From contig NZ_SMCQ01000001.1 of the NCBI RefSeq assembly GCF_004343035.1, forward strand, positions 1-64,000: DNA of 64,000 bases, in the 5' to 3' direction. The stretch's first letter is position 1, and each line of letters begins with the position of its first letter. The notes beneath the pieces are model-generated. The model did no database searches, was not told where the DNA came from, and saw only the letters and a program-made list of their open reading frames with translations. The stretch is from Longibaculum muris. GTDB taxonomy: Bacteria > Bacillota_I > Bacilli_A > Erysipelotrichales > Coprobacillaceae. Below are positions 53,403 through 55,171 of the stretch, piece by piece. The translations under genes and the position numbers were made by a program.

Positions 53403-53433
53403 AAAAAAGTCCTTTGTGAAAAACAAAGGGCTT
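53403..53433 (-). terminator. Terminator of the NUDIX gene (minus strand)
   Basis: On the minus strand AAAGCCCTTTGT pairs with ACAAAGGACTTT (one G-T), followed by T6. Confidence 0.75.
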
Positions 53434-53960
53434 TATTTGTTTTGTTGAACTGCATACATAATCGCAATCACTGTTTTGGCATCAACAATTTCACCAGATA
53501 GAACTTTCTGATAAGCTTCATGAAGATCCATCTTCACAACATCAATAAATTCATCATCATCACAATCAAGTGAATCATCAACTTCTTTAAAATCAACCGC
53601 TTCATACAAATATAACCATTCACTTGTATATCCTGGTGAAGGAAGAACTTTCATAATAAATTTCATGTCTTGAGCACGGCAATTTGTTTCTTCTTCTAAT
53701 TCACGAAATGCACATTCTTTGGTATCTTCATCTTTTTCTAGTTTTCCAGCAGGAATTTCTAATGTGTTAACACGATTAGGATATCTAAATTGTTTAACTA
53801 GTAAAATTTGATGATTTTCCACTGCAAGAACACAAACACCACCATGATGATAGACAACTTCTCTAAAAGCATGATTTCCATCTTCTAATTCAACTTCTTC
53901 ACGAGTGACCTGCATAATTTTTCCATCATAAATCACTTCTCTATTTAATTCTTTTTCCAT
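53433..53960 (-). CDS. NUDIX hydrolase, ADP-ribose pyrophosphatase type
   Basis: A 175-residue enzyme with a complete Nudix box, GKLEKDEDTKECAFRELEEE followed by TNC (G-x5-E-x7-REUxEExGU pattern, the final Gly replaced by Asn). Flanking elements (FREVVYHHGGVCVLAV, LVKQFRYPNRVNTLEIPAG) match ADP-ribose pyrophosphatases such as B. subtilis NudF. It probably clears ADP-ribose. An extended -10 (TGCTATAAT) lies just upstream on the minus strand. Confidence 0.88.
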   Translation of the reverse strand: MEKELNREVIYDGKIMQVTREEVELEDGNHAFREVVYHHGGVCVLAVENHQILLVKQFRYPNRVNTLEIPAGKLEKDEDTKECAFRELEEETNCRAQDMKFIMKVLPSPGYTSEWLYLYEAVDFKEVDDSLDCDDDEFIDVVKMDLHEAYQKVLSGEIVDAKTVIAIMYAVQQNK

Positions 53961-53990
53961 TTTTTCAACTCCTTGTCTTTATTATAGCAC

Positions 53991-54097
53991 AAAAAAAGAA
54001 AAGAAAGTACGCGGGGGAGCATACTTTCTTATTCTCTCTATTATTTACACGTTAGGGTGATAATAGGGGGGGTACGATTAAGTGAATACCACTTAAC
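53991..54097 (-). ncRNA. Candidate C-rich small RNA
   Basis: No protein frame lies between the NUDIX and RluA genes, but the minus strand has a promoter (see next entry), then about 107 bases ending in a strong terminator. Starting near 54097 it has a hairpin TTAAGTG/CACTTAA, an unpaired stretch with seven consecutive C (54072-54066), an AT-rich linker, and a 12-bp terminator stem AAGAAAGTATGC/GCGTACTTTCTT with hexaloop TCCCCC, then TTCTTTTTTT. C-runs in single strands or loops are the seed type of several Firmicutes sRNAs that bind ribosome sites. Known name not assigned. Confidence 0.65.
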
Positions 54098-54103
54098 AAC
54101 TTT

Positions 54104-54131
54104 ATTATATCAAAATTTCACACATTGTAAA
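54104..54131 (-). promoter_or_regulatory. Promoter of the candidate sRNA
   Basis: Minus strand: -35 TTTACA (54131-54126), 16-bp spacer, consensus -10 TATAAT (54109-54104). Confidence 0.65.
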
Positions 54132-54196
54132 GGCTTTCAGATAAAAATGGTATATTTTTTAATGAAATTTCGTTATAATAAGAGGCGGTGATGAAA

Positions 54197-55171
54197 ATGA
54201 AAAAAATAGTCATAGATGAAAATCATGCTAATCAAAGAATAGATAAATATTTAAAAAAGTTATTATGTCAGGCTCCTTCACAATTGATTTATAAAATGCT
54301 TAGAAAAAAAGATGTTAAAGTCAATGGTGTGAAGGTCAAAGAAAATTATATTTTACAAAATCAAGATGTTGTGGAACTTTTTTTGTATGAAGATAAATTT
54401 CAAGAGTATACAAAACCTCAAACAATTTTTGATTTAAAAATAGAATTTGAAGTCTTATTTGAAGATGAAAATATTTTAGTAGTTGGTAAACCAGCTGGAC
54501 TTTTGGTTCATGAAGATATAAATGAAGGAATGAATACATTAGCAAATCAAGTTTTAACATATCTTTATCAAAAAGGGGAATATGATTCTCAAGCTTCTTT
54601 AGGTTTTACTCCTGGACCTGTTCATCGATTAGATCGAAATACGAGTGGCATTGTGATATTTGGTAAAACTATGCGAGCTTTACAAGATTTAAATGAAATG
54701 ATGAAAAAAAGACATTGTATAGAAAAAACATATTTAACAATTTGCAAAGGATATATGCCTTCAGATGAATTGATTGGTTATATGAAAAAAGATAGTGATC
54801 AGTCACTTGCTAGAATTGTTAGTCAAAATACTCCTGGGGCTCTTAAGATGCATACTATTGTTGAAAATGTTAAATCAAATCAAGAATACTCATTATTAAA
54901 AGTTAAACTGATTACTGGAAGAACGCATCAAATACGTATTCATTTATCCAGTGTGCATCATCCTATTATTGGAGATAGTAAATATGGAGATTTTGAATTG
55001 AATAAAAAAATAAAAAAACAATATCATCTGAATTATCAATTTCTTCATGCTTATCAAATTCAATTTGTTAAACCAATTGGTTGTTTAAAATATCTACAAG
55101 ATTATAAAATCACTTGTCCTTTACCACAAAATTTATTAAAAATAAAAAAACAAATCTTTAATGAAAAATGA
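54197..55171 (+). CDS. RluA-family 23S rRNA pseudouridine synthase
   Basis: About 324 residues. An N-terminal S4 RNA-binding domain (QRIDKYLKKLL...KDVKVNGVKV) precedes the RluA catalytic domain with HRLDRNTSGIVIFGK (catalytic Asp) and TGRTHQIRIHL, and YLTICKGY. It modifies uridines in rRNA or tRNA; RluC/RluD/YlyB cannot be separated from sequence alone. Starts at 54191 and 54197 are both possible; 54197 gives a reasonable spacing to GGTGAT. Confidence 0.9.
   Translation: MKKIVIDENHANQRIDKYLKKLLCQAPSQLIYKMLRKKDVKVNGVKVKENYILQNQDVVELFLYEDKFQEYTKPQTIFDLKIEFEVLFEDENILVVGKPAGLLVHEDINEGMNTLANQVLTYLYQKGEYDSQASLGFTPGPVHRLDRNTSGIVIFGKTMRALQDLNEMMKKRHCIEKTYLTICKGYMPSDELIGYMKKDSDQSLARIVSQNTPGALKMHTIVENVKSNQEYSLLKVKLITGRTHQIRIHLSSVHHPIIGDSKYGDFELNKKIKKQYHLNYQFLHAYQIQFVKPIGCLKYLQDYKITCPLPQNLLKIKKQIFNEK

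Follow-up and report, generated by a model that had tools for sequence, protein, structure and literature searches.

A conserved C-rich candidate regulatory RNA beside nudF in Longibaculum muris and its gut relatives

The window analysed here, a 64,000-nt stretch of the Longibaculum muris genome, carries on its minus strand (positions 53991..54097) what is very likely a real, conserved and undescribed RNA gene of about 107 nt. With a probability of about 0.72, we read it as encoding, in single copy, a regulatory RNA that is independent and acts in trans, with C-rich seeds that would be directed against Shine-Dalgarno sites; it is conserved across the family to which Thomasclavelia, Faecalibacillus, Massilimicrobiota, Stoquefichus and Beduini belong. 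The earlier note had put forward an undescribed C-rich small RNA (sRNA) equipped with a promoter and a terminator of its own. Strong support for this candidate comes from its conservation throughout the family, from covariation and a conserved promoter, from persistence of the RNA where nudF is missing, and from the lack of any Rfam match. A search of the open literature turned up no description of an sRNA from this gut family, Thomasclavelia and Faecalibacillus included. A single-copy RNA kept by no fewer than 17 of 20 genera would be a first concrete handle on the family's post-transcriptional control, one whose seeds and promoter element are already defined and whose model could become an Rfam family.

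All the elements originally claimed for the locus are present on the minus strand. The -35 hexamer TTTACA (54131-54126) and the 8 bases upstream of it form an element conserved across the family, TGAAAGCCTTTACA (54126..54139), and a 16-nt spacer leads to a TG-extended -10 box TATAAT (54104..54109). From a predicted start near 54097 the transcript would begin with a 5' hairpin (54077..54097) of 7 pairs, in which 83.8% of cells are paired and 4 pairs show double changes. An exposed run of seven C (54066..54072), C4-C7 in most relatives, follows and is itself followed by UAU. Next comes an A/U hairpin (54038..54066) whose 5' side and loop carry UAUCACCCUAAC, a segment that, by eye, we take to resemble the anti-Shine-Dalgarno end of 16S rRNA, presumably AUCACCUCC. 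The intrinsic terminator has a 12-bp stem (54001..54030) closed by the hexaloop TCCCCC (54018-54013) and ends in the T-tract TTCTTTTTTT (53991..54000). Downstream, on the same strand and outside the RNA, lies a nudF-like NUDIX hydrolase gene (53433..53960; PF00293); upstream, an RluD-type pseudouridine synthase gene (54188..55171, plus strand; PF00849, S4) diverges, its start lying beyond the sRNA promoter.

The sRNA promoter matches 11 of 12 consensus bases and ranks first among 26 promoter-like sites in 4.5 kb, yet shuffled sequence is expected to hold 25.3 such sites, so the match by itself is no evidence and the case for the sRNA, which is sequence-based, rests on comparison. The predicted fold has a minimum free energy of -31.5 kcal/mol, while shuffled sequences give -11.1 +/- 2.7 (z = -7.5). 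The C7 run is unpaired in this fold, as the earlier note had it, except that the final C is able to close the middle A/U hairpin, which leaves six C fully free. That the C-runs are unlikely by chance was borne out: a terminator loop with C5 occurs just once among 92 terminator-like hairpins of L. muris and once among 95 of a relative, with 381 kb covered in each, both being this RNA, and the runs are conserved family-wide. In favour of an ordinary terminator and a promoter-like sequence with accidental C-runs, promoter-like sites are as common as in shuffles, but the same elements recur in the same order across the family, with covariation, and we give this account practically no credence; conservation rules it out.

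A DNA search matched the sRNA segment in relatives, with identities reaching 90%. Lack of conservation in close relatives, which the earlier note had named as evidence against the RNA, was not found: covariance model R1, which matches the window at 53999-54098 with 98.9 bits, matched 35 of 43 family genomes (E <= 0.01), usually in single copy. Divergent copies that R1 missed were recognised by eye in three more genomes (G008, G016 and G024), all of which share the promoter element and have C5 in the terminator loop. Counting these three by-eye copies and an interrupted copy in G003, the RNA is present in 38 of the 43 genomes, which represent 17 of the 20 genera. Outside the family, R1 gave just two weak matches among 245 sampled genomes of the order. 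An exact 21-base core pattern was found in 23 records among 84,980 species genomes, from Thomasclavelia, Faecalibacillus, Massilimicrobiota, Stoquefichus, Beduini and unnamed Erysipelotrichaceae, Clostridiales and Firmicutes bacteria, and none of the 23 had a title clearly outside the group. The usual location is between the divergent rluD-type gene and the nudF-like gene; in Thomasclavelia MAG.139 (L062) about 1.8 kb of extra sequence separates the rluD-like gene from the sRNA. One copy (L083, in G003) is broken off after its 5' part, apparently by an insertion, and another (L294, in G029) directly after the -10, near a contig end, so the RNA may be dispensable.

Some other C-rich loci were noted along the way. 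Weak matches of the sRNA model in other families score about 23-37 bits, some with a similar C-rich architecture; the wider model R2 also matched weakly in other members of the class, and these matches, other C-rich terminator-loop RNAs among them, fit no Rfam family at gathering score and may be convergent, with homology to the sRNA only putative. They include RNA-like segments in genus g84 of the same class (L318-L322) and in family f2 (L323-L326) with C-rich hairpin and terminator loops, the g84 segments having several C5-C7 loops consecutively. The L. muris genome itself has a second C-rich RNA-like locus (L312, G000:C7:52344-52448, plus strand; kin L314, L089 and L090) laid out as a 5' hairpin, ACCCCTCTCCC and a terminator loop UUCCCC, with similar sequence in Massilimicrobiota genomes and no match in Rfam. 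A terminator with loop CCCCTATT near G000:C1 position 261184 (minus strand), behind a LysR-like gene and with the loop ACCCCTAAT in its G005 counterpart, is probably an ordinary terminator.

The C-runs are nearly unchanged in sequence while the stems around them turn over. The covariation search of relatives suggested by the earlier note found double changes at 11 of 18 predicted pairs in alignment A1. In alignment A3 (19 sequences, aligned without structure, the structure being derived from the first of them) the terminator and the 5' hairpin both covary, with double changes at 14 of 19 pairs, a level reached in 0 of 500 shuffles; 31 cells changed on both sides, compared with 8.6 in shuffles and 3-9 in slid controls. 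Within the terminator stem, double changes occur at 10 of 12 pairs, and in two orthologues (L023 and L026) the stem is altogether different, the C-rich loop that it encloses being the same. The longest invariant parts across the 19 sequences are the loop CCCCCG and the core CCxCUA; loop exceptions in A1 are L005, with C4, and L011, with CCCTC. When orthologues were folded singly, the first C-run was unpaired with a probability of 0.70-1.0, except in L028 (G008; 0.39), where it is short and partly paired, and the terminator loop was open at 0.71-1.0. The A/U hairpin is missing or reduced in L082, L084 and L086 and is thus inessential to the architecture. The smallest version, L086 at about 76 nt, is reduced to the 5' hairpin, ACCCCCUAU and the C5 loop.

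The promoter is conserved as well. At every aligned orthologue the sRNA is preceded by the 14-mer TGWAANCCTTTACA or a variant differing at 1-2 bases, with a variable spacer to the -10. The exact 14-mer occurs once in the L. muris genome, at the sRNA, and about once in most genomes, which points to dedicated control with no visible regulon. Control by CcpA was considered and rejected: the element is cre-like at 13 of 14 positions, but its centre is CC, with no central CG, and the canonical cre form as searched is absent from the L. muris genome. Lone copies of the 14-mer elsewhere, with gene names assigned by eye and taken as leads only, lie before a gapA-like gene in G004, at a flavin-oxidoreductase-like gene in three Thomasclavelia genomes and at a gene for a PTS-like protein in G026.

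The position of the RNA raises the question of whether it belongs to nudF as a 5' leader, acting as a riboswitch or attenuator in which some condition opens the terminator and lets nudF be transcribed. In most genomes it does lie directly upstream of nudF on the same strand, and in many sequences the CATAC that precedes the C-run could base-pair with GUAUG of the terminator's 5' arm. A leader would always adjoin its gene, however, and among the genomes compared this one does not: Beduini (L023/L076) has an intact RNA and no nudF within the stretch read, in L010 other sequence separates it from nudF by about 640 nt, L011-L013 have either inserted sequence or a contig without nudF, and in genus g8 the RNA persists with inserted sequence. 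Retention of the RNA where nudF is missing or distant argues against a leader. Nor was a conserved antiterminator pairing found, as L023 and L026 retain CATAC itself while their terminator stems, by eye in the alignment, have no match for it. The nudF-like gene has an apparent -10 of its own, TGCTATAAT (53981..53986), just past the sRNA T-tract, with TATAAT or a close variant in many orthologues adjoining nudF, and none of the Rfam leader families matches at gathering score. We regard a leader function as very improbable.

The independent regulatory RNA that we favour would work as follows, judging from its conservation and anatomy and from known C-rich sRNAs of Firmicutes. The dedicated promoter would yield an RNA of about 75-108 nt with a protective 5' hairpin and an end set by the intrinsic terminator. 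Two C-rich seeds, ACCCCCUAU between the hairpins and UCCCCC or ACCCCC in the terminator loop, would be kept single-stranded; by pairing with G-rich Shine-Dalgarno regions they would prevent several mRNAs from initiating translation. The middle segment UAUCACCCU, like the ribosomal anti-Shine-Dalgarno end, might extend the pairing, which is speculative. On its anatomy, binding of Shine-Dalgarno sites is likely.

Target prediction at ribosome sites, which the earlier note had called for genome-wide, was run over 381 kb and over 180 pairs of orthologues shared with G005; it gave one suggestive gene, and no genome-wide signal was seen. In L. muris, GGGGGA occurs at 114 ribosome sites against 16 in the reversed control. 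The ratio of G5 sites to control is 4.0 in the family and 3.2 in relatives of the order without a detected copy, nearly the same enrichment; the genomes as a whole thus show no sign of targeting, and we rejected these sites as evidence of it. Thomasclavelia likewise favours GGGGGA over GGGGGT despite its ACCCCC terminator loop, and no co-evolution of loop and site is therefore seen. The strongest shared duplexes predicted over the 180 pairs include those with accC-like and epsC/capD-like genes.

The best target candidate is the epsC/capD-like polysaccharide biosynthesis gene (Pfam Polysacc_synt_2), which has G8-G10 just before its start, although this assignment is suggestive only. In L. muris an 8-G tract abuts the start (L162, G000:C1:197320-197335), and two relatives have 10 G (L163 and L164); the changing tract length suggests that phase variation is possible. 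Copies in L167, L175, L177 and L183 and one copy in G031 have an internal stop. A G5 ribosome site precedes the gene in 10 of the 20 genomes that have the RNA and a readable start (the broken G003 copy included). Outside the clade of selection it does so in 7 of 17 genomes, compared with 0 of 94 for the unselected neighbours nudF, rluD and glk (p ~6e-7) and 2 of 26 for proB (p 0.018); these p-values overstate the case, given the relatedness of the genomes and the selection of the gene from a ranked list. At the G036 and G022 sites, pairing through the UAUCACCCU segment is also predicted to be possible. If this gene is a true target, the RNA would be linked to the cell surface. The targets named earlier found no support as such; the AGGGGGA before proB did not hold up, with G5 in just 3 of 27 aligned orthologues, and a DUF1275-like gene (G000:C1:83193; name by eye) was set aside with G5 confined to the window's own clade.

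Constraint on single-stranded C-runs alone cannot separate mRNA pairing from binding of a protein or another sRNA. The conserved RNA could act mainly through a protein or as the sponge or the sponged partner of another RNA at its C-runs, and not at mRNA ribosome sites. In Staphylococcus, the G-rich sRNA RsaI likewise binds RsaE at its UCCCC motifs (PMC9217828). Two separated C-runs, one of them in a terminator loop, are on the other hand the published anatomy of Shine-Dalgarno-binding sRNAs, and we think an action mainly through a protein or another RNA unlikely. We are also doubtful of a bolder form of the Shine-Dalgarno reading, in which a family-wide core regulator would mimic the anti-Shine-Dalgarno end at three places (the C-run, UAUCACCCU and the terminator loop) and tune the translation of numerous genes, including ones for surface polysaccharides, whose ribosome sites are unusually rich in G, in response to a signal acting at the conserved -35 element.

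Compared with the class of C-rich trans-acting sRNAs, the RNA has conserved unpaired C-rich motifs and, as judged by sequence, an intergenic position with its own promoter and intrinsic terminator. It matches no Rfam family, and the models of RsaE/RoxS and LhrC gave no match even at E values up to 10; by Rfam it is a homologue of none of LhrC, RsaE and FsrA. FsrA of Bacillus serves the iron-sparing response and is controlled by Fur; by this description it may differ from the RNA here, which keeps TGWAANCCTTTACA over its -35. The likeness to FsrA lies in being C-rich and of the base-pairing type, base-pairing being predicted here, and FsrA has been cited as such alongside the UCCC motif group (PMC4132741). 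In RsaE/RoxS of Staphylococcus and Bacillus, conserved C-rich regions can pair with G-rich Shine-Dalgarno sites (PMC4409812), and the RNA here shares such regions and the potential for such pairing, which in its case is only predicted. LhrC of Listeria binds a Shine-Dalgarno region through a loop, a single strand and its terminator loop, and its CU- or C-rich motifs lie in a single-stranded stretch and the terminator loop as they do here (PMC4132741). LhrC is, however, multicopy, with a third motif in loop A and the motif CUCCC...UUUU, whereas the RNA described here is single copy, with C5-C7 runs and a 5' hairpin loop that is not C-rich.
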